Shown here one piece after another: positions 31,141 through 40,606 of a DNA stretch of 41,327 bases. Position 1 is the first letter of the stretch, and each line of letters starts with the position of its first letter. The notes under the pieces are model-generated. The model saw nothing but the letters and a program-made list of their open reading frames with translations. It had not been told where the DNA came from and did no database searches. This DNA is from Porticoccaceae bacterium (GTDB taxonomy: Bacteria > Pseudomonadota > Gammaproteobacteria > Pseudomonadales > Porticoccaceae). Made by a program: the position numbers and the translations under genes. The stretch lies in the NCBI GenBank assembly GCA_029238255.1, contig JAQWGK010000023.1, forward strand, positions 1 through 41,327. The letters are read 5' to 3'.

Positions 31141-31162
31141 AGGCTTTTTTTACACCGCCTTT
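31139..31162. terminator. Weak bidirectional hairpin between DUF484 gene and rnr
   Basis: AAAGGC and GCCTTT form a 6-bp stem with a T-rich 12-nt loop and short T-runs on both sides. It overlaps both stop codons. Confidence 0.35.
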
Positions 31163-33642
31163 TAACGTTTGGGCTTTTTGTTGCCCGCCGAAGAACTTCG
31201 TTTCTTGCCCGAACTCGCTGGCGCTGCATTGCGGCGTCTTTTAGAGGTTTTTCCTGCCCCTTTACCTTTGCCGCCAGTACTTGATGGCCCTCGCTTCTTT
31301 TTGCCCTTAGCTTTGCGTTTAGCGTCGTGCTCTCTGGCCATCTCTTTGGCTTTGTCAGAGACCTTAACTTTAGCCGCTTTTCCAGAGCCGGGAGAGACGG
31401 AGGATTTTGGCTGTTCGGCCAGTTCAAAATCGATCTTGCGCTCATCCAAGTTGACCCGCACCACTCTGACTTTCAATTTGTCGCCAAGGCGGAATACTCG
31501 ACCAGTGCGCTCACCGACCATACGGTGCTGAGCGGCTTCGTGATAATAATAATCCTTGGGCAGACCAGTCACATGGATCAAGCCTTCGACATACAGATCA
31601 TCGAGCATAACAAACAGCCCAAATCCGGTAACTGCGCTGACTACCCCGGAGTATTCTTCGCCTACCCGATCCATCAGATATTCACACTTTAGCCAGTTGA
31701 CTACATCTCGTGTCGCCTCATCGGCTCGGCGTTCAGTAACGGATAAATGGGAACCGGTTTCGTCGAGACGTGGCAGTTCGTAGGGATAGATATCCGGCTT
31801 GGCAAGTTCAGTAGCACCTTTAACTCGAACAACACCGGCAACTTTTTTATTGCTGCGGATCAGATAGCGAATAGCTCTGTGCACCAAAAGATCTGAATAA
31901 CGTCTGATCGGTGAGGTGAAATGCGTGTAGGCATCAAAAGCCAGACCAAAGTGTCCGAGATTTTCAGACTGGTAAACCGCCTGACTCATGGAGCGCAACA
32001 TCACTGACTGAATAACTGAGGCGTCATCGCGCTTGCCAACCGACCTTAAAACACGCTGATAGTCTTCAGGTTGCGGTTCGTCACCACCCCCAAGGCCAAT
32101 ACCTAATTCACCAAGGAAATCTCTTAGAGAGGACAGGCGTTCTTCGCTGGGGCCTTCATGGACACGATAGAGAGCCGGGAGCTTGGATTTTTCGAGGAAT
32201 TGCGCAGTGCAGACATTGGCTGCGAGCATACATTCTTCAATAAGGCGGTGAGCTTCGGTGCGCTTTACCGGGATTATCTGGCTTATCTTGCGCTGCCCAT
32301 CAAAGAGGATTCGTGTTTCCTGACTATCAAAGTCGATTGCACCACGTTCATTGCGGCGCTTGTGCAGTCTGGTGTATAGGTCATGGAGAGCGTCTATATG
32401 AGGCAGAATGGCTGAGAACTGATCTCGGGCACCGGAAGACTCGCCACTGCTTCTCTCTTCAATCATCTGCGCCACCTGGGTATAGGTGAGTCGCGCATGG
32501 GAGTGCATTACCGCTTCATAAAACTGGTATTTGGTTACATCCCCTTCACGGTTGACCTGCATCTCGCAGACCATACAGAGTCGATCTTCTGCAGGGTTTA
32601 AGGAACAGAGTCCATTGGAGAGTTTCTCCGGCAACATAGGTACTACATGATTGGGGAAATAAACCGAGTTACCCCGTTCAAAAGCCTGAGTATCCAGCGC
32701 GCTGCCGGGCTTTACGTAATGGGAAACATCGGCAATCGCAACGATTAGCTTCCAGCCACCACGGGGTTTTGGCTCACAGAAAACCGCATCGTCAAAGTCA
32801 CGGGCATCTTCGCCGTCAATGGTCACTAGGGGCAGCTCTCTCAGATCAACTCGAAAATCCTTATCGGTTACATAGTCTGGGATGGCATCGGTTTCTGCCT
32901 TAACGTCGTCATTCCACTGATGGGGAATACCGTAGTTGCGGATCGAGACTTCGATTTCGAGGCCCGGATCCAGATGATCACCCAATACTTCGCTAATCCG
33001 TCCGGTGGGCGGACTATTGCGGGATGGTGCTTCGGTGATATCAACCAGCACAATTTGACCGGCCTGGGCGCTGCAGAGTTGATCTGCGGGAATTAATATA
33101 TCCTGACTGATACGCGGATTGTCCGGACGCACAAAGTGAATACCGCTCTCACAAAAATAACGGCCGACTAATTCTTGAGTTTTGCGTTCGACCACATCAA
33201 CTAGCGTACCTTCGGGTCGTCCACGACGATCCCAGCCAGCGATTCTCAACAGCACTATATCGCCATCAAACACCCGTCGCATCTGACGACTTGAAAGATA
33301 GATATCCTGATCACCACCCTGCAGTGGGGTTACAAACCCATAGCCTTCAGGATGGCCAATAACTCGGCCTTTAACCAGATTCAGCTTATCCAATGTGCCG
33401 TAACCACCAGTTCTATTACTGGCTATCTGGCCATCTCGCTCCATGGCACGCAGGCGGCGGCGCATAGCTTCAACCTGATCCTCATCGACCAGTTTAAGTC
33501 CGGCGCATATTTCTTCGTGGGTCATTGGACCGACACTTTCGTGGAGATAATCGAGCACAAACTCCCGGCTTGGAACCGGACGTTGGTATTTAGCGGCTTC
33601 ACGAGTCGCGTAGGGATCTGTGTTTTTGCTTTTTCGAGACAT
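31162..33642 (-). CDS. rnr: Ribonuclease R
   Basis: RNase R is a processive 3'-5' exoribonuclease that degrades structured RNA and takes part in trans-translation and rRNA quality control. The 826 residues have an N-terminal winged helix (REFVLDYLHESVGPMTHEEI), cold-shock domains, the RNB catalytic domain with the metal-binding DGEDARDFDDAVF, RRYSDLLVHRAI near its end, an S1 domain (EYSGVVSAVTGFGLFVMLDDLYVEGLIH) and a strongly basic Lys/Arg/Gly tail. rlmB, which usually follows, is absent. A separate promoter is visible at 33662-33690. Confidence 0.96.
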   Translation of the reverse strand: MSRKSKNTDPYATREAAKYQRPVPSREFVLDYLHESVGPMTHEEICAGLKLVDEDQVEAMRRRLRAMERDGQIASNRTGGYGTLDKLNLVKGRVIGHPEGYGFVTPLQGGDQDIYLSSRQMRRVFDGDIVLLRIAGWDRRGRPEGTLVDVVERKTQELVGRYFCESGIHFVRPDNPRISQDILIPADQLCSAQAGQIVLVDITEAPSRNSPPTGRISEVLGDHLDPGLEIEVSIRNYGIPHQWNDDVKAETDAIPDYVTDKDFRVDLRELPLVTIDGEDARDFDDAVFCEPKPRGGWKLIVAIADVSHYVKPGSALDTQAFERGNSVYFPNHVVPMLPEKLSNGLCSLNPAEDRLCMVCEMQVNREGDVTKYQFYEAVMHSHARLTYTQVAQMIEERSSGESSGARDQFSAILPHIDALHDLYTRLHKRRNERGAIDFDSQETRILFDGQRKISQIIPVKRTEAHRLIEECMLAANVCTAQFLEKSKLPALYRVHEGPSEERLSSLRDFLGELGIGLGGGDEPQPEDYQRVLRSVGKRDDASVIQSVMLRSMSQAVYQSENLGHFGLAFDAYTHFTSPIRRYSDLLVHRAIRYLIRSNKKVAGVVRVKGATELAKPDIYPYELPRLDETGSHLSVTERRADEATRDVVNWLKCEYLMDRVGEEYSGVVSAVTGFGLFVMLDDLYVEGLIHVTGLPKDYYYHEAAQHRMVGERTGRVFRLGDKLKVRVVRVNLDERKIDFELAEQPKSSVSPGSGKAAKVKVSDKAKEMAREHDAKRKAKGKKKRGPSSTGGKGKGAGKTSKRRRNAAPASSGKKRSSSAGNKKPKR

Positions 33643-33661
33643 AGGACTTCTTTTATCGAGA

Positions 33662-33690
33662 GTTATACTTTGTACTTGCAGCGCAGTCTA
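33662..33690 (-). promoter_or_regulatory. Candidate sigma-70 promoter of rnr
   Basis: On the minus strand TAGACT (-35, 4/6; 33690-33685) and TATAAC (-10, 5/6; 33667-33662) are 17 bp apart. Transcription would start near 33655, giving a very short rnr leader. It lies downstream of the intrinsic terminator at 33729-33768, so rnr and the upstream RNA element appear to be separate units. Confidence 0.6.
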
Positions 33691-33728
33691 AGTCTTATGG
33701 GCGATTGAGTAAAAGAAATTCTCCAGAC

Positions 33729-33768
33729 AAAAAAAACTCGGGCTATCTGAAAGGGGTTCAGGCCCGAG
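33729..33768 (-). terminator. Intrinsic terminator of the tandem GGA-motif RNA
   Basis: On the minus strand CTCGGGC and GCCCGAG form a 7-bp GC-rich stem (loop CTGAACCCCTTTCAGATA, itself able to pair CTGA/TCAG), directly followed by eight Ts. The reverse direction has no T-run, which fixes the direction as minus. It follows no protein gene nearer than the kinase 645 bp upstream, so it implies a non-coding transcript. Confidence 0.9.
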
Positions 33769-33832
33769 GTATAGCAATAACTAATTTAAAAATAAAAGTA
33801 CCGGGAATTGTGAAATCTTAATACTGCTTAAA

Positions 33833-33856
33833 CTTTCAAACTTTCAAACTTTCAAA
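33833..33856. repeat. CTTTCAAA, three perfect 8-bp tandem copies
   Basis: Three exact copies of CTTTCAAA lie between the 3' RNA copy and its terminator. They form an unstructured linker in the predicted RNA and are likely a slippage product. Confidence 0.9.
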
Positions 33857-33863
33857 ATATTAT

Positions 33864-34083
33864 ATTGATTCGCACCATCCCTGGTGCACGACTTCCTGGT
33901 CGCCATGTATTTACAAAATTCTAAAGGTGCAAACTAATTGGCTTTCCTTCCTTAGTGGGTCAACTCCCTGTCAACCCAGCCTCAAGCGTCCTGCTTATTA
34001 GCGCGATCTGTAAAACAGCAGTGTAGGTCTGTTATTCAGTCACCAGTAGAGTCCCTTTATACGCATCATGCTAGGGAATCAAT
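33864..34083 (-). repeat. 220-nt RNA element, copy 1 (3' copy)
   Basis: This copy is bounded by ATTGATTC (5' on the minus strand, 34083-34076) and GAATCAAT (33871-33864), which pair and can extend to about 12 bp. It is clearly similar over its full length to copy 2. It carries the same seven GGA motifs and the GCACC-AGGGAT-GGTGC hairpin. Confidence 0.92.
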
Positions 34084-34099
34084 ACAAATTTTAATCTCA

Positions 34100-34319
34100 A
34101 TTGACTCGCACCGTCCCTGGTGCACGACTTCCTAGTCGCCATCTATTAACACAAATCTAGAGGTGTGAGCTAATTGGCTTTCCTTCCTTAGTGAGTCAAC
34201 TCCCTGTCAACCCAGCCTTAAGCGTCCTGCTTATTAGCGCGATCTGTAAAACAGCAGTGTAGGTCTGTTATTCAGTCACCAGTAGAGTCCCTTTGTACGC
34301 ATCATGCTAGGGAGTCAAT
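34100..34319 (-). repeat. 220-nt RNA element, copy 2 (5' copy)
   Basis: This copy is bounded by ATTGACTC (34319-34312) and GAGTCAAT (34107-34100). Relative to copy 1, one C-G pair of this closing helix replaces a T-A pair, a compensatory double change. Length is identical (220 nt), and the two copies are separated by 16 nt. Confidence 0.92.
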
Positions 34320-34329
34320 ACGAGTTGAC

Positions 34330-34335
34330 ATATTA
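34330..34335 (-). promoter_or_regulatory. Candidate -10 of the tandem sRNA
   Basis: TAATAT on the minus strand would start transcription near 34323, four nt before the closing helix of copy 2. No good -35 is seen, which fits a promoter that needs an activator. I find no clear TGTAAG-N6-CTTACA GacA-type box upstream. Confidence 0.4.
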
Positions 34336-34413
34336 AGAGGGTTTAAAGAAAAAAAATATTACACTGACGAGTTAATACCAAAGGATTAGTCAAACTGCAT
34401 AATTTGCTTTAGA

Positions 34414-36657
34414 TCAATCGAATACAAACCCTTTGATATGCTGGCGGATCTCTTCAACTCTGCTCAGGTTATCCTCAGCATTGAGACTTCCGTAGTCCGC
34501 ACGAAACTGCATAACCAACTCGCGCAGTTCAGACATTCCATATAGACCGGATAAACCCATAAGATCGTGAATAATCCCACGGAGGCTGGCATTTTCACTA
34601 TTGTTCAATTGGTCATCCAATTTGTCCAGGCTTTCATATAGCGCGTTTTTTAGCTCATCTACTGGCACTACGGTTGAAAGCAAGCCCATTCCACTACTTT
34701 CCGGTTGACCTCCGGACTGGGGCAGTACCTTGGTCAGACTGCGAATTAATTTATCCTCATCGACAGGCTTTAGCAGCATCATTTCTGCGCCGGCTTTTTT
34801 CATACTGTTTTCTTCGGTGAGAGTTACATCCGCAGTTAGAGCTATAATTGGCGGGCTATCTCCAGACTGTTGAACAATGGTCTCACAGGCGGTTATGCCA
34901 TCGATCACCGGCATATGGATATCCATCAAAATTACATCGAGGTGCAATTCTTCAGCAATTTTGATCGCCTCAAGGCCATTGTCTGCTGTTAGGCACTTAG
35001 CTCCGTAGGCACTTAGCAGCCGAACAATTAATTTCTGATTAAAGGGGTTATCTTCTGCAACAAGCACTGTAACTCCAGCAAGGGTTTTCTTTACATCGCG
35101 AAGTTCCAGTGGATTGGCAATTTGCGGCAGGGTTTTATCCTTATCAGCCAATGCCAACTGACAGGTAAACGAAAAGACAGATCCATGACCCAGCATACTG
35201 CGCACTTTTATCTCGCCACCCATTGCCTGAACAAGGCTTTTACAGATCGAAAGACCTAAGCCGGCACCCCCAAAGCGCCGATTGATAGAAGTATCCTCCT
35301 GTGAAAACGGGTCGAACAGAACAGGAATTTTTTCTTCTTTAATGCCTTTACCCGTGTCTTCAACTGAGCAGTGCAGAACAATATTTTTATCTTCTGCAGC
35401 TATACAGCTTATGGTGATAGTTACCCCGCCTCGGTCGGTAAATTTAACCGCATTGCTCAGTAAATTACTGATTACCTGGGTGAAGCGAACTGGATCACCG
35501 ATCAGTAATTTAGGCACATTTTCATCAATACTGTAATTTAAAATTAGCCCTCGCTCTTCAGCTCGCGGACCATGAATCGCGAGTAGATCAGCCATCCATG
35601 AGTCAATATTGAAGGAGACTTTTTCAAGGGTAAACCCACCGGCTCGAGCCTTGGAAAATTCCAGAATATCGTCAATCATTGTCAGCAACATATTCGATGA
35701 CATGCTGATAATACGTAGACTTTCCTCGCGCTTCCTGGCATCACTTTCCGCTGCCAACAACTTTGAAAACCCAATAACCGCAGTCAGTGGTGTACGCAAC
35801 TCGTGACTCATTCGCGCCAGAAACTGATCCTGAGCCTCCATTGCATCTTCCAGTTCGATCAATGTAATCTGTAGCTGGGCTGTGGCGCGCGCGACTTCAC
35901 TCTGCATGCGAACGTTGTATTGACGAACACTGGTAGAGAGCTGGTTGATACCTGAAGCCAACTTGCGCAACTCCATCGGCCCCTCTTCAGGGGCAAACAG
36001 ATTGAGATTGCCAGCCTCCATGGTATCGACTGTTTCAGTTAAATTTTCCAGTGGGCGAGATATACTGCGCCCTATTCTCATTGCAATCCAGGCGGCAATC
36101 AGCAGACCTAGGGTCGATACGACAAGCACCGCAAAAATTCCCTCGCGTCTCTGCTCCATCAATATCTCGTCGGTCACAGATACCACCACCCAGCCGAGCA
36201 TCTCAGGCTCTGGAGTTATTCCTTCGTCGTAATCCAGAAGAGATAAATCCTCTCCGGTTATAGGCGCATAGAAATACCAGAGATTATCCGCATAAAAGGG
36301 TTTAATCAGATTATCTTCCTCTTGGCCTTTCACCACCGAGAGATCAAAACTACCAATAGTGACATTGGAGTCCTGATTGAGGTTGTAAAAGGCAAGCCCT
36401 TTAACCGAAGGGATATCAAGCACTGACTCACCGATATCTCTGAGCATTGCCTGATTATTGGAATAGAGAGCGAACTCAGCATTGGAAGACACCTGCTGAA
36501 CGGCAATGCTGCCAATGTTTTTTAGGTTGGCCAACAATACAACACGCTGATTGGAGATCATATAACTGGCTAAAACCATGCACAGCAACGTCAAGGGCAA
36601 TAATGAAGTAATCAGTAGCCTTGAGTGAATACTTGAAAACCTTTTATTCGCAGCCAT
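34414..36657 (-). CDS. BarA/GacS-like tripartite hybrid sensor histidine kinase
   Basis: The 747-residue inner-membrane kinase has two transmembrane helices (~13-34 and ~173-193) enclosing a ~138-residue periplasmic sensor, then HAMP (~194-246). HisKA carries His285 in MSHELRTPLTAVIGF. HATPase has NLLSNAVKF, DTGKGI and GLGLSI. The receiver carries Asp579 in ILMDIHMPVIDG, and a C-terminal HPt domain carries His697 in HDLMGLSGLYG (Met where Lys is usual). The layout and the coiled segment before HisKA (RQYNVRMQSEVARATAQLQ) resemble BarA/GacS. The start overlaps the stop of the substrate-binding-protein gene (TAATG), so the two are coupled. The probable chain ends on the LuxR regulator at 39869. 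Confidence 0.88.
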   Translation of the reverse strand: MAANKRFSSIHSRLLITSLLPLTLLCMVLASYMISNQRVVLLANLKNIGSIAVQQVSSNAEFALYSNNQAMLRDIGESVLDIPSVKGLAFYNLNQDSNVTIGSFDLSVVKGQEEDNLIKPFYADNLWYFYAPITGEDLSLLDYDEGITPEPEMLGWVVVSVTDEILMEQRREGIFAVLVVSTLGLLIAAWIAMRIGRSISRPLENLTETVDTMEAGNLNLFAPEEGPMELRKLASGINQLSTSVRQYNVRMQSEVARATAQLQITLIELEDAMEAQDQFLARMSHELRTPLTAVIGFSKLLAAESDARKREESLRIISMSSNMLLTMIDDILEFSKARAGGFTLEKVSFNIDSWMADLLAIHGPRAEERGLILNYSIDENVPKLLIGDPVRFTQVISNLLSNAVKFTDRGGVTITISCIAAEDKNIVLHCSVEDTGKGIKEEKIPVLFDPFSQEDTSINRRFGGAGLGLSICKSLVQAMGGEIKVRSMLGHGSVFSFTCQLALADKDKTLPQIANPLELRDVKKTLAGVTVLVAEDNPFNQKLIVRLLSAYGAKCLTADNGLEAIKIAEELHLDVILMDIHMPVIDGITACETIVQQSGDSPPIIALTADVTLTEENSMKKAGAEMMLLKPVDEDKLIRSLTKVLPQSGGQPESSGMGLLSTVVPVDELKNALYESLDKLDDQLNNSENASLRGIIHDLMGLSGLYGMSELRELVMQFRADYGSLNAEDNLSRVEEIRQHIKGFVFD

Positions 36658-37643
36658 TACCTAGCCTCCAGGTTAATGCGGTCGCGGTAGAATTGTTCAG
36701 TTTGCAGCTTAATCTTTAAGTTAGCAGCGACGGATCGGTTAAAGTTGAGAGAGTAATGGGTCGGCTTATTTAAGCTGCCAACCTTTGCGCGTGCTGGCTC
36801 CATTAGCCAATCCACTGTGTCTTTAGCAACATCCTCCGGAGCAGAATAAATAGCGGCTAAGGCTCCGGCTTTTAAGTAGCTTTTCGAAAAGGCAATAACA
36901 GGGACTTTGTAGCGATAACTTAGATGCAATATCCACTTGGCCGTGGCGATATTTATTAGCCTGCTGTCAGAGATTGGAATAAAAACATCACTGCGGCTAA
37001 GAACCGGCTCGATCTTGTTGATGGGGTTGTCTTTGGCATTGATGGAAACAAACTTCGGCTGCAAGGCACTGTCAGTAATATACTTGCTTAACTCGGCCTG
37101 CCTGTGGGCTGACGCCGGCCCTAACATCACGCCAACCCCGGATGACTCAGGAACTAGAAACTTAGCTAATCGAATACTGCGCATAACAGGCTGATCCAAA
37201 CAGATAGAGGATACCTGTGCGGCAAATGCAGCATCGGTTGAACCATAGTGTTTTTCTGTCAGCGCTGAGAAGGCATTTTCGGTGATCAGGACACTTAATA
37301 TTGGTGCCTTGGGTCTGTTGCTAAAAACCGTATCAGCCGCTGCCGTGCCTATAGTAACGATAAAATCTGCGGCAGCTAGATCAGCCTTTAGCTCTGGCTC
37401 TGAGCTTCTAAATACTGTATTAAATTCATAGCGCTCGGGGCTCAGTATCTCCAGCTGCTGCTTAACACTATTTAAGACCTCAACATAGTCGGCTGAAGGT
37501 TTACTGGCCACAAACAATATACTGGATTTTCTATCCGCAATTGCATAGCTGCAGGCAAATATAAGCAGAAACAGGCTCGCCAACCAGTACTTAGCTGATC
37601 GGCGAACAGGTTTCATTAACTTATAGGGATTAAATAACGCCAC
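36657..37643 (-). CDS. Periplasmic ABC-type substrate-binding protein
   Basis: The protein has a signal peptide (hydrophobic YWLASLFLLIFACSYAIA) and a two-lobed periplasmic-binding fold of the ABC_sub_bind / TrpX-like family. Visible blocks are SILFVASKPSADYVEVLNSV, DFIVTIGTAAADTVFS, PILSVLITENAF, FLVPESSGVGVMLGPASAH and YKVPVIAFSKSYLKAGAL. No permease or ATPase is nearby. With a coupled kinase downstream and a TonB receptor upstream, it more likely presents a ligand to the kinase sensor than feeds a transporter. GTG at 37643 is given as start; the ATG at 37616 (MKPVRRSAKYW) makes a more usual signal peptide. Confidence 0.78.
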   Translation of the reverse strand: MALFNPYKLMKPVRRSAKYWLASLFLLIFACSYAIADRKSSILFVASKPSADYVEVLNSVKQQLEILSPERYEFNTVFRSSEPELKADLAAADFIVTIGTAAADTVFSNRPKAPILSVLITENAFSALTEKHYGSTDAAFAAQVSSICLDQPVMRSIRLAKFLVPESSGVGVMLGPASAHRQAELSKYITDSALQPKFVSINAKDNPINKIEPVLSRSDVFIPISDSRLINIATAKWILHLSYRYKVPVIAFSKSYLKAGALAAIYSAPEDVAKDTVDWLMEPARAKVGSLNKPTHYSLNFNRSVAANLKIKLQTEQFYRDRINLEAR

Positions 37644-37715: not shown

Positions 37716-39833
37716 TTAGGGAAGAGTGACTCTAAAACCAAGAATATATCGAGTTTCAAAGTGAATAGAATCATAAAACTCCTGATAGGAGTCACCAGCA
37801 TTTTGGACAGTCAATGAGACATCTACAGTTGAACGATCCACCTGCCAACTTTTTGCTGCCTTAAGGTCAACTCGTGTGTAACCATCGAGTTTTGAACCAT
37901 CAAAAAAGAAACTTTTTCCCGAATTGTAAGAAATCATTGAACTCAAACTAATACCGCTATCGAGTTGATAGCTGGTAAGCAGGCCCAAAGTATTTTTCAG
38001 ACTTCTTACATCAAGATCTCTAAATTCGACCTCTGGTGCTGACCTATACAATGATTCGCCGTCGATATCTGAATAACTGTAATAAGCGCGTAATAGAAAG
38101 CGGTTGCTTGGCTTATACAGGGTTTGAAATTCGATACCACGAATATCAAGAGTATCGGTGTTATCGCGAATATTGACGAAATTATCCAGATCGGGATAAA
38201 CATCGCGACGCTCACTAATAACATCGCGCAATTGTTCATAATAGAGACGCATATCCAGGCTCAGCGTTCTATCCATAAAATAGCCTGCATAACCCAATTC
38301 GTAACTCTTGAGCTCTTCATTTTTTATATCTGCATCGGAAATACTGCCGGCATCAAGAATAAGATCTCTAAACAATGGATTGCACTCAGGCGCTGTTGAA
38401 TCAGGGCTGCATTCCTGGGGATTCACATAACGGACAACACCTATCTGATTATTTTCAAGCAGAGTTGGCGCTCGGAAACTGCGATTTAGGGCAAACCGCA
38501 ATATATGGTCTTCGCTCAACAGATAGTTTGTCGCAAGCCTGTAAGAGCCATAAACATTAGTGCTATCCCTATCTTCAAGAAGAACACCAGCATTGACAAT
38601 CAACTGCTCGGACTGAGTCCACTCTAAATTTGTATAGGCTCGATAAGAAGTCTCAGTGAGAGAATTGAGAGTATCAAACAGTGATTGGCTTGAGACTCGG
38701 TCATAACGCACTGCTGCTCCAGTCACTGCTCGCAGATTATCCGCAGGCTGAATGGTAGTTCTAAGCTCTACATCCCAACGCTCTGACTCGCCACGATGGC
38801 TTCCATCAAAGATAGTGGTATCTGGCACTGGACCCAGCGGCCAAAAAGGAGAGCTGTCATCGACACCAATAATCTCGGAAATTGTCTGTGCCTGTACATC
38901 ATCATCCAGATCCAGATCATTGTGATAGATAACCAGCTGCAATTTATTGCCCTGTTTATTGAGGCGAGTCCAATTTAGATATTGGTACTGGTAGGACATA
39001 TCACGATTAAAATATTCATCCTCACCAATCCAAAGATCGCTTTCAGTCGCACCAATTTGAAATTCAATATTATCACTTGAACTTGGAGTCCAGAGCCCTT
39101 TAGAAGTCAGGCTAATAGACTCAGAATCATCCTTTATATCAAGTAAATTACCGCGCCACTGGGTATCATCAAATCCATCATTGCCTCTGACACTCAAGGT
39201 TGTTCGGTGATCGACCGCGCCAATTTTTCCGCTATAGCTCAAGGCTGCATTGCGTGTCTGGGAACTACCCACCTGCGAGCGAAAAGACAGGCCTGTATCC
39301 AGTAGCGGTGATCTTGTCACTATATTGATCGAGGCTAAGAAAGCATTACTGCCATCTGCAGCCCCGTTGGCACCGCGAACAACTTCTACATACTCAATGT
39401 CGTCCAGATCGATACCAATGGTTGACCAGGTAACCGCTGAAAATAAAGATTCATAAACCGATCGACCATCTACCTTAACCTCCAGACGCCGCGGGTATTC
39501 ATCACCCAACGCATGGTAGGTCACTCCCCTGCGGCTTCCATTGACATAGTAAGTTTCGAAGCCGGGCACCAGACGAAACAGATCAGCAATATCCACAGCC
39601 GTTGAAGCCTGAATGGTCTGGCGATCAATAATTGTCACAGAAGCCGGAGTCTGAGGAAGCGTCTGCTCCATATGGGTCACACTGCTTACAATTGGGATTT
39701 CAACCAGCAAGTCGTCCTCTGTAAGCATATCTACCTCGCTGGAGGCTATGGCTGAAGCCGTTACAATTGGCGCTGCTATAAAGAGCGCCGCAAGGGGAAG
39801 TCGGTATTTTTTTGCAAGGGTGGTAAAAGACAT
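37716..39833 (-). CDS. TonB-dependent outer-membrane receptor
   Basis: The 705 residues have a signal peptide, a TonB-box-like stretch (LLVEIPIVSSV, 42-52), and a plug domain with TPASVTIIDRQTI, DIADLFRLVPGF, VKVDGRSVYE and IEYVEVVRGANGAADGSNAF. A 22-strand-type barrel follows, ending in ETRYILGFRVTLP with the signature FRAPTLLENNQIG. The substrate is unknown. Two cysteines (ECSPDSTAPEC) in an extracellular loop could form a disulfide. GAGGAT precedes the ATG. It lies 35 bp after the LuxR regulator and 72 bp before the substrate-binding protein, so it is probably co-transcribed with both. Confidence 0.9.
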   Translation of the reverse strand: MSFTTLAKKYRLPLAALFIAAPIVTASAIASSEVDMLTEDDLLVEIPIVSSVTHMEQTLPQTPASVTIIDRQTIQASTAVDIADLFRLVPGFETYYVNGSRRGVTYHALGDEYPRRLEVKVDGRSVYESLFSAVTWSTIGIDLDDIEYVEVVRGANGAADGSNAFLASINIVTRSPLLDTGLSFRSQVGSSQTRNAALSYSGKIGAVDHRTTLSVRGNDGFDDTQWRGNLLDIKDDSESISLTSKGLWTPSSSDNIEFQIGATESDLWIGEDEYFNRDMSYQYQYLNWTRLNKQGNKLQLVIYHNDLDLDDDVQAQTISEIIGVDDSSPFWPLGPVPDTTIFDGSHRGESERWDVELRTTIQPADNLRAVTGAAVRYDRVSSQSLFDTLNSLTETSYRAYTNLEWTQSEQLIVNAGVLLEDRDSTNVYGSYRLATNYLLSEDHILRFALNRSFRAPTLLENNQIGVVRYVNPQECSPDSTAPECNPLFRDLILDAGSISDADIKNEELKSYELGYAGYFMDRTLSLDMRLYYEQLRDVISERRDVYPDLDNFVNIRDNTDTLDIRGIEFQTLYKPSNRFLLRAYYSYSDIDGESLYRSAPEVEFRDLDVRSLKNTLGLLTSYQLDSGISLSSMISYNSGKSFFFDGSKLDGYTRVDLKAAKSWQVDRSTVDVSLTVQNAGDSYQEFYDSIHFETRYILGFRVTLP

Positions 39834-39868: not shown

Positions 39869-40540
39869 CTAATCTGTCATCTCTGAATTTTCATCCAGAC
39901 CTAGCTTTTGTCCCAAAATCCCTGCTTGGGTTCGGTTGGTTAAACCCAGTGCGCGCAGCATTGCGCTGACATGCACTTTCACTGTGTTCTCCGATAGATC
40001 GAGATCACGTGCAATCTGCTTATTAGAGCGGCCCTGAGTAATATGCCGCAAAATATCCATCTGCCGCTTGGTTACCAGACCCGAAATAATATCTATATCT
40101 GCCCCGGAATCCACTTCATCCATCACCTTGGCGACATCGGGCATAGACTCTCGCAGTGATTCAGGCACATATTTCTCCCCCTTTAAAGCTCTTGAAATAG
40201 CCTCAAACAGCGCATCTTTAGGCGCAGATTTGGTCACAAACCCGGAAGCACCATAGTCTAGACACTTGCGAATATGGGCAGGGTTTTCAGAGGCGGAAAG
40301 AACAATAATGGGTAGATCCGGGTAGCTCTCACAGAGCATGGCGATAAAGTTAAAGCCGCCACCAGAGCCGGGCATAAATAAATCCACAATAACCAGATCG
40401 ATATTTTCCCGGGCGAGAATCACCAGCGCAGTATCGCCGTGATCGGAGGTTGTTACGTCAATATTCTGGTATTCGTCCTGTAGGGTTGCTTTTAACCCAA
40501 CACAGACAAAGGCGTGATCATCAACTATGAGAACGTGCAT
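39869..40540 (-). CDS. LuxR/NarL-type response regulator
   Basis: The receiver domain (MHVLIVDDHAFVCVGLKATL, phosphoacceptor Asp53 in LVIVDLFMPGSGG, Lys in GFVTKSAP) is followed by a LuxR-type helix-turn-helix (VTKRQMDILRHITQGRSNKQIARDLDLSENTVKVHVSAML). ATG 40540 is the better start: AAGGAA lies 7 nt upstream. The longer frame from 40600 adds 20 non-homologous residues. It has GacA/UvrY-like architecture but with a ~30-residue insert between the domains; orthology to GacA is not shown. It heads the receptor-kinase set and is the likely output of the hybrid kinase. Confidence 0.9.
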   Translation of the reverse strand: MHVLIVDDHAFVCVGLKATLQDEYQNIDVTTSDHGDTALVILARENIDLVIVDLFMPGSGGGFNFIAMLCESYPDLPIIVLSASENPAHIRKCLDYGASGFVTKSAPKDALFEAISRALKGEKYVPESLRESMPDVAKVMDEVDSGADIDIISGLVTKRQMDILRHITQGRSNKQIARDLDLSENTVKVHVSAMLRALGLTNRTQAGILGQKLGLDENSEMTD

Positions 40541-40606
40541 GTTTTCATTCCTTGTTTTCACGTCCCTGCGTGTTTGACTACAGCTAATCCATAGCCACAA
40601 CTAAGC

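Follow-up and report, generated by a model that had tools for sequence, protein, structure and literature searches.

CsrA sponges are usually discussed as an output of GacS/GacA. The locus described here raises the question of whether a tandem, GGA-bearing sequence flanked by a hybrid kinase gene and by rnr is such a sponge, and of what would switch it on. The window (the whole stretch of DNA analysed, 41,327 nt of contig JAQWGK010000023.1, assembly GCA_029238255.1) comes from a Porticoccaceae bacterium, which its named relatives place in the marine SAR92 clade. According to excerpts of PMC10746254, this clade is abundant in coastal seawater and includes cultured strains, and we found the same locus in SAR92 strain H231 (locus L036). 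The initial annotation of the window had proposed a CsrB/RsmX-like regulatory RNA on the minus strand.

Our comparisons point to a CsrA-sequestering RNA of the CsrB/RsmZ type as the most probable reading, with a probability of roughly 0.72. The RNA would function like CsrB/RsmZ while standing outside those Rfam families and outside the usual Gac circuit. About half of the genus combines CsrA with the GGA-loop RNA and a conserved upstream box, and none of its genomes scores for GacA at the level seen in the family, which raises the questions of what can replace GacA there and how duplication tunes the number of sites.

Tandem units between the kinase gene and rnr

Repeat alignment showed two direct copies at 33864-34090 and 34100-34326, each of 227 nt, 93% identical and 236 nt apart from start to start. 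When bounded by their closing helices, the units measure 218 nt with 18 nt between them and follow each other head to tail on the minus strand with the same 236-nt period, so the initial annotation was right about the two direct copies and slightly off in giving 220 nt and 16 nt. The copies have rnr on one side and a BarA-like hybrid kinase gene on the other (Table 1), and the frame scan found no open frame of at least 25 aa inside the repeat, in agreement with the first description. The self-complementary closing helix of each copy was also recovered; the two versions, TTGACTC/GAGTCAA and TTGATTC/GAATCAA, differ by one compensatory change. There is one candidate promoter region and one terminator for both units, and the window's own genome carries the element at a single locus.

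Table 1. Features of the RNA locus and its surroundings in the window
Feature	Position	Strand	Basis or remark
rnr (ribonuclease R), downstream neighbour	31162..33642	-	preceded by a conserved promoter-like sequence of its own, which follows the terminator
Intrinsic terminator, 7-bp stem CTCGGGC/GCCCGAG and eight T	33729..33768	-	by eye
RNA unit 2 (3' copy)	33865..34082	-	architecture as unit 1; compensatory change in closing helix; R1 match 34090-33859, 224.8 bits
GGA of unit 2, first bases	33880, 33896, 33947, 33951, 33967, 33991, 34054	-	positions checked
RNA unit 1 (5' copy)	34101..34318	-	closing helix, 5' domain, GGA-loop hairpins, seven GGA; R1 match 34326-34095, 231.8 bits
GGA of unit 1, first bases (span 34114..34290)	34116 (H6), 34132 (H5), 34183, 34187, 34203 (H3), 34227 (H2), 34290	-	positions checked; conserved alignment columns
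Candidate -10 element TAATAT	34330..34335	-	by eye; TATTAT in many relatives
Conserved CAGTGTAAT block adjoining the inverted repeat	34358..34366	-	24 upstream regions
18-bp imperfect inverted repeat CTAATCCTTTGGTATTAA, putative activator site	34372..34389	-	comparison of upstream regions
Hybrid histidine kinase	34414..36657	-	best NCBIfam model BarA, 435 bits; cut-off of 890 not reached
ABC-type substrate-binding protein (SBP), neighbouring cassette	36657..37643	-	
TonB-dependent receptor, neighbouring cassette	37716..39833	-	
LuxR-type response regulator (RR)	39869..40600	-	no GacA, scoring 82 bits where the cut-off is 280

The Rfam covariance models, run over the whole window at the gathering threshold, gave no match to the RNA. 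At E ≤ 10, the region 33640-34420 gave four matches, none of them from the Csr/Rsm families (CsrB, CsrC, RsmX, RsmY and PrrB_RsmZ). The Infernal comparison with these family models, which had been suggested as a way to recognise the RNA, thus gave no match of these families. The folding z-scores were -1.6 for unit 1 and -2.6 for unit 2 on the minus strand, -2.0 for unit 1 on the opposite strand and 0.09 for a relative (L016). Overall folding energy is modest and gives no preference for the minus strand.

GGA sites and their chance level

Each copy carries seven GGA at positions identical in both, as the earlier count had it; the minus strand of the locus has 14 in all and the plus strand 2. 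The number of motifs is not above chance: shuffled sequences had means of 4.8 and 4.4 for the two copies (p = 0.17 and 0.12), and the count was above chance in none of the 24 units aligned below (p = 0.059-0.65 in shuffles). Since shuffles reach the same level, we dropped the GGA count as evidence.

For GGA in hairpin loops, four per copy were found against about 0.9 in shuffled sequences (p = 0.008 and 0.007 for the two copies, or 0.017 and 0.010 with dinucleotide shuffles), which bears out the remark that several motifs lie in loops. Under mononucleotide shuffling, 19 of the 24 units reached p < 0.05. GGA site 1 was paired (TCCC/GGGA) in two predicted folds. No part of the window has more hairpin-loop GGA than the tandem locus (8 per 468 nt). 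A 400-kb sample of a near relative (G018), counted on both strands with coding sequence included, contained 31 merged stretches with at least four hairpin-loop GGA per 240 nt; the RNA itself was among them with four, and seven others had five to six. As other stretches equal or exceed the RNA, a single sequence alone makes a weak case, and the case for the RNA rests on conservation.

Conserved structure and loops across genomes

We aligned 24 units from 23 genomes (alignment A1), and this alignment is the basis of a covariance model (R1). Left out were L002, which occupies the same place as L001, L013, which is cut by a contig end, and L021, which has an inverted piece at a contig start. In this alignment, six GGA sites were retained by 24, 20, 24, 24, 23 and 24 of the 24 units (83-100%). 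The GGA columns were 97% identical, compared with 76% for the remaining columns, and their conservation was equalled by 8 of 20,000 random sextets of triplets.

Run on A1 unprompted, RNAalifold folded the units into a closing helix, a multi-branch helix and four hairpins whose loops carry GGA. Across the 37 named pairs, 95.4% of the cells were paired, against 27-41% in slid versions, and 14 of the pairs showed changes on both sides. The covariation score was 0.304, compared with 0.196 in shuffles, which do not keep relatedness, and none of 500 shuffles scored as high; for 'further pair types', the shuffles scored no lower.

A loop of the form A(N)GGA(X), 4-6 nt long and closed by C-G, was present in hairpin H3 in 24/24 units, in H6 in 21/24, in H2 in 19/24 and in H5 in 0/24, where the loop is mostly UAGGAN or UUGGAN and falls outside the strict CsrA loop form. 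Repeated A(N)GGA conserved in the loops of short hairpins, by which a CsrA-sequestering RNA is recognised, was found except in a sister group of five genomes described below. According to excerpts of PMC4005645, each of the four RsmZ stem-loops has A(N)GGAX in a loop of 5-8 nt with C-G as the closing pair, and the proposed high-affinity form is a stem with a six-nt ANGGAX loop; excerpts of PMC7652899 give the CsrA SELEX consensus as RUACARGGAUGU, with six-nt loops in most cases. The GGA loops of the RNA resemble these known CsrA/RsmE sites. With covarying GGA-loop hairpins in 23 genomes and CsrA present, the CsrB/Rsm-like class first assigned to the minus strand is the best-supported one, although no Rfam family matches. 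Alignment A1 and model R1 are ready to be used as a new RNA family.

Distribution and copy number of modules

With strict filters at E ≤ 1e-20, R1 matched 24 of 50 same-genus genomes and none of 44 others, and blastn added a contig-end copy in G032, giving 25 genomes with the RNA. The search of related genomes and the covariance model that the initial annotation had called for thus yielded homologs with covarying stems. Two matches at E 0.06-0.09 were treated as chance. Among the 26 genus genomes with no R1 match at E ≤ 1e-20 are the five of the sister group and the one with the contig-end copy. Because the strict filters missed the sister group, divergent copies outside the genus are possible. 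Kinase and rnr both flank the RNA in 20 of the 25 genomes, and one of these neighbours is seen in the other five, which have contig ends. The locus is in the same place wherever its flanks are readable, and blastn homologs occur in many same-genus genomes.

The complete two-unit form was found only in the window's genome. Three of the other 24 genomes have one unit followed by one (L009), two (L008) or three (L005) extra 3' modules, with 13, 19 and 21 GGA up to the terminator, respectively. The rest have one unit as far as the contigs reach, apart from L021, whose contig begins inside the RNA and holds at least two modules. The predicted transcript would thus carry 6 GGA in a one-unit relative, 14 in the window and 21 in the relative with most modules. 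Duplication of a whole domain, as initially proposed, was thus seen in the window's genome only, and three relatives have extra copies of the 3' module. CsrB multiplies single stem-loops, whereas here the sites are multiplied by copying a multi-hairpin module. At positions 1-86 of L021, a reverse-complement piece of the 5' domain is fused to the 3' part of the RNA, which is either an assembly artefact or an inversion at the repeats.

A conserved box upstream and a terminator downstream

Comparison of 24 upstream regions showed an 18-bp imperfect inverted repeat in nearly all of them (absent in L015). Its symmetry extends to 5/9 arm positions in the window and to 7-8/9 at a shared offset in 8 of the 24 loci. 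The adjoining CAGTGTAAT block ends 39 nt (19/24 loci) or 37 nt (5/24) before the RNA unit; it reads TAGAGTAGT in L026, one of the five at 37 nt (measured by hand), and has a one-base change in a few others. The putative transcription start would lie near 34323, and the promoter scan listed no site at the candidate -10 element.

The combined box pattern was found with 0 mismatches in 27 of the 50 genus genomes, always at the RNA locus, and with one mismatch there in two more; it was derived from these loci, so that matches there are partly built in. Elsewhere the pattern gave only one-mismatch matches, about as many as a reversed control; one such match (L180) apparently lies within coding sequence, by eye. 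For the 18-bp repeat in the window's own genome, allowing up to two mismatches, there were 6 matches against 7 for the reversed control, which is uninformative. A second near-perfect 18-bp inverted repeat lies between genes, before a LysE-like transporter gene (G000 C57:47422-47439, L122; by eye), and no GGA-rich RNA was seen beside it, by eye. We also considered a pairing of CAGTGTA in the promoter with UACACUG in the RNA and dropped it, as its variants are not compensated (by eye).

The UvrY site is an 18-bp inverted repeat, TGTAAG-N6-CTTACA, in excerpts of PMC4682653, and the repeat of the window has the same length and a different sequence. The best site of this form upstream of the RNA in the window had 5 of the 12 fixed positions wrong. 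Across the 24 loci, the best sites had 2-6 of 12 wrong, compared with shuffled means of 4.5-4.9, the nearest being L023 (2), L020 and L025 (3 each).

At the other end of the locus, the minus-strand GC stem followed by eight T was confirmed by eye where the initial annotation had placed it. It is absent from the output of the terminator scanner, which is limited to loops of 3-8. Relatives have terminator-like stems of different sequence at the equivalent position (by eye).

CsrA, GacA and the neighbouring genes

CsrA is encoded in the window's own genome, in 42 of the 50 genus genomes and in 85 of 94 overall, and its core is nearly identical between the main and sister groups (ten read). With the GacA/UvrY model at E ≤ 1e-40, none of the 50 genus genomes reached 215 bits, a line of our own choosing (the curated GacA cut-off of 280 is reached by no family member), and four scored 150-157 bits, a level also reached by second paralogs in genomes with a stronger GacA. 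Among eight family members of other genera, five scored 215-243 bits, one gave a partial match of 165 and two gave none. A match was found in 28 of 36 order-level genomes and was lacking in 8. Because of this gap in scores, we call GacA 'lost' in the genus.

A narrower form of the sponge reading is that the adjacent kinase and LuxR-type RR switch the RNA on, and that receptor, SBP, kinase, RR and sponge form a self-contained cassette replacing GacS/GacA. The kinase is BarA-like, and the kinase or a C-terminal remnant of it precedes the RNA in 24 of the 25 genomes, the other one being cut by its contig. The order RR, TonB receptor, SBP, kinase before the RNA was found in 10 of 11 named loci, where no protein of the cassette is more conserved than the RR (76-97%), and the genus-wide lack of a family-like GacA score fits as well. 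The RR was present in 27 of 31 genus genomes with the RNA or the box, compared with 7 of 19 without (Fisher p = 0.0004, uncorrected for phylogeny or linkage and with G033 counted as without). G033 is not judgeable at the locus owing to a run of N, and the missing RR of G008 may be due to the contig start.

Against such a cassette, three genomes (G004, G029 and G039) keep the RNA and a perfect box with no RR at E ≤ 1e-45 and with neither receptor nor SBP beside the RNA, the kinase being represented by a C-terminal piece only. These results indicate that the local kinase/RR pair is not an obligatory switch. In the opposite direction, six genus genomes (G020, G025, G027, G031, G042 and G045) and one of another genus (G054) have the RR and the kinase and lack both the RNA and the box in the interval from kinase to rnr. 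We regard the self-contained cassette as possible, with the balance leaning against it.

Some of the kinase loci are irregular. At L043 (5607-7104), L228 (8641-9456) and L229, the RR, the receptor, the SBP and the front of the kinase seem to have been deleted, and a C-terminal remnant stands before the RNA; in L228 this remnant is in one frame with the start of another gene. We take the genes upstream of the remnant in these three loci to be rimM/trmD-like. At L003 (G017), the kinase is split over tblastn segments 277-511, 512-621 and 614-747, and it may be a pseudogene or reflect sequencing errors.

A divergent sister group

In five genomes (G005, G008, G010, G035 and G043), a divergent RNA occupies the equivalent place behind the same box, and R1 aligned with it from end to end, at E 5.5e-8 to 8.5e-5 in 13 kb. 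The closing helix and hairpins H5 and H6 are kept in this group, with the loops AGGGUA and AUAGAY in 5/5. Three GGA elsewhere are kept in all five RNAs (by eye), and neither the GGA number nor the loop GGA of these RNAs was above chance in shuffles. The initial annotation had set relatives without conserved GGA motifs and hairpins against its own reading: both 3' hairpin loops have lost their GGA in these five genomes, whereas motifs and hairpins are conserved in 23 genomes. The sister-group RNA may thus either have lost part of its affinity for CsrA, or its hairpins may serve another role too. In G048, the box is present with degenerate sequence behind it.

An RNA structured for another protein or for base pairing, with GGA loops that are incidental or serve CsrA in some members of the genus only, would account for hairpins that persist without loop GGA in the sister group. 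It would also accommodate A1 columns 64-74 (CCUACACUGC, 5' domain), which are almost invariant, belong to the most conserved parts of the alignment and are explained neither by CsrA nor by a clear helix. In most of the 23 genomes, however, the loops retain GGA where the stems vary, and they look like known CsrA/RsmE sites, so we consider this alternative unlikely.

Relation to rnr

Its shared strand, its place immediately upstream and the terminator at its end would suit the RNA as a regulated leader (a 5' UTR with a terminator) of rnr. Between terminator and gene (33642-33729), however, the window has the promoter-like sequence TACTC...CATAGACT, which is kept in the same-genus loci reaching it, with or without the RNA (by eye), and was not seen in G054. 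In six of the seven genomes named above that have RR and kinase and neither RNA nor box, all but G054, it follows directly after the kinase (by eye), which argues against the RNA as the leader of this gene, and we rejected this very improbable reading.

We give next to no credence to a mobile or repeat element with MITE-like inverted ends in place of an RNA gene: its inverted ends and tandem copies would suit one, but there is a single locus per genome at a fixed place, the ends covary as a helix, and phage and plasmid records gave no match to the RNA (nor did viral contigs, which carry little weight as they were compared with one 36-base near-exact pattern only).

Proposed mechanism and comparison with known systems

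For the CsrA-sequestering RNA, we infer transcription, CsrA binding, titration and an activator along the following lines. The transcript would be an independent regulatory RNA, about 590 nt long and read from the minus strand, starting at a promoter just past the kinase gene and ending at the intrinsic terminator ahead of rnr. Each unit would offer GGA in the loops of short hairpins together with single-stranded GGA, and each CsrA dimer would occupy two such sites and thereby be drawn away from its mRNA targets, in the manner of CsrB/RsmZ. A second copy of the unit or of the 3' module would give more sites per transcript. The conserved upstream box would bind an activator that switches the RNA on, and since GacA was not found in the genus, this would not be canonical GacA. 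More tentatively, at a little under even odds, we picture a rewired Csr circuit in which the genus lost GacA and kept CsrA, many members use a lineage-specific sponge with its own activator site, the dose is set by copying whole modules within one transcript, and one sister group has shed GGA from two loops.

The view that this lineage had no described Csr RNA agrees with the literature matches listed, none of which concerns a Csr RNA in SAR92 or the Porticoccaceae, and no paper joining SAR92 and CsrA was found; most subscription papers were outside the scope of both searches. The closest comparisons are with RNAs of other groups. PrrB/RsmZ, RsmX and RsmY of Pseudomonas likewise have short A(N)GGA loops closed by C-G and single-stranded GGA (PMC4005645, excerpts), and they have an upstream activator site (UAS; PMC7911923, excerpts), for which the upstream repeat of the window is a different sequence. 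They also differ from the RNA described here, which has no Rfam match, a 218-nt unit inside a closing helix and no GacA of family-like score in its genus. CsrB and CsrC of Enterobacterales likewise carry many GGA in one long RNA, 22 in CsrB and 14 in CsrC (PMC11882849, excerpts).

Csr RNAs of single lineages are known as well, namely Pf1-Pf3 of Pseudoalteromonas, which were tested at the bench (PMC11882849, excerpts), and CsrR1/CsrR2 of Alcanivorax (PMC9788540, excerpts). By their descriptions, their site numbers and neighbourhoods differ from those found here. In P. brassicacearum, the dosage is likewise raised by tandem duplication, of rsmX-1 and rsmX-2 (PMC7911923, excerpts). These are two separate genes with an activator site each, whereas one box and one terminator were found for both copies in the window.
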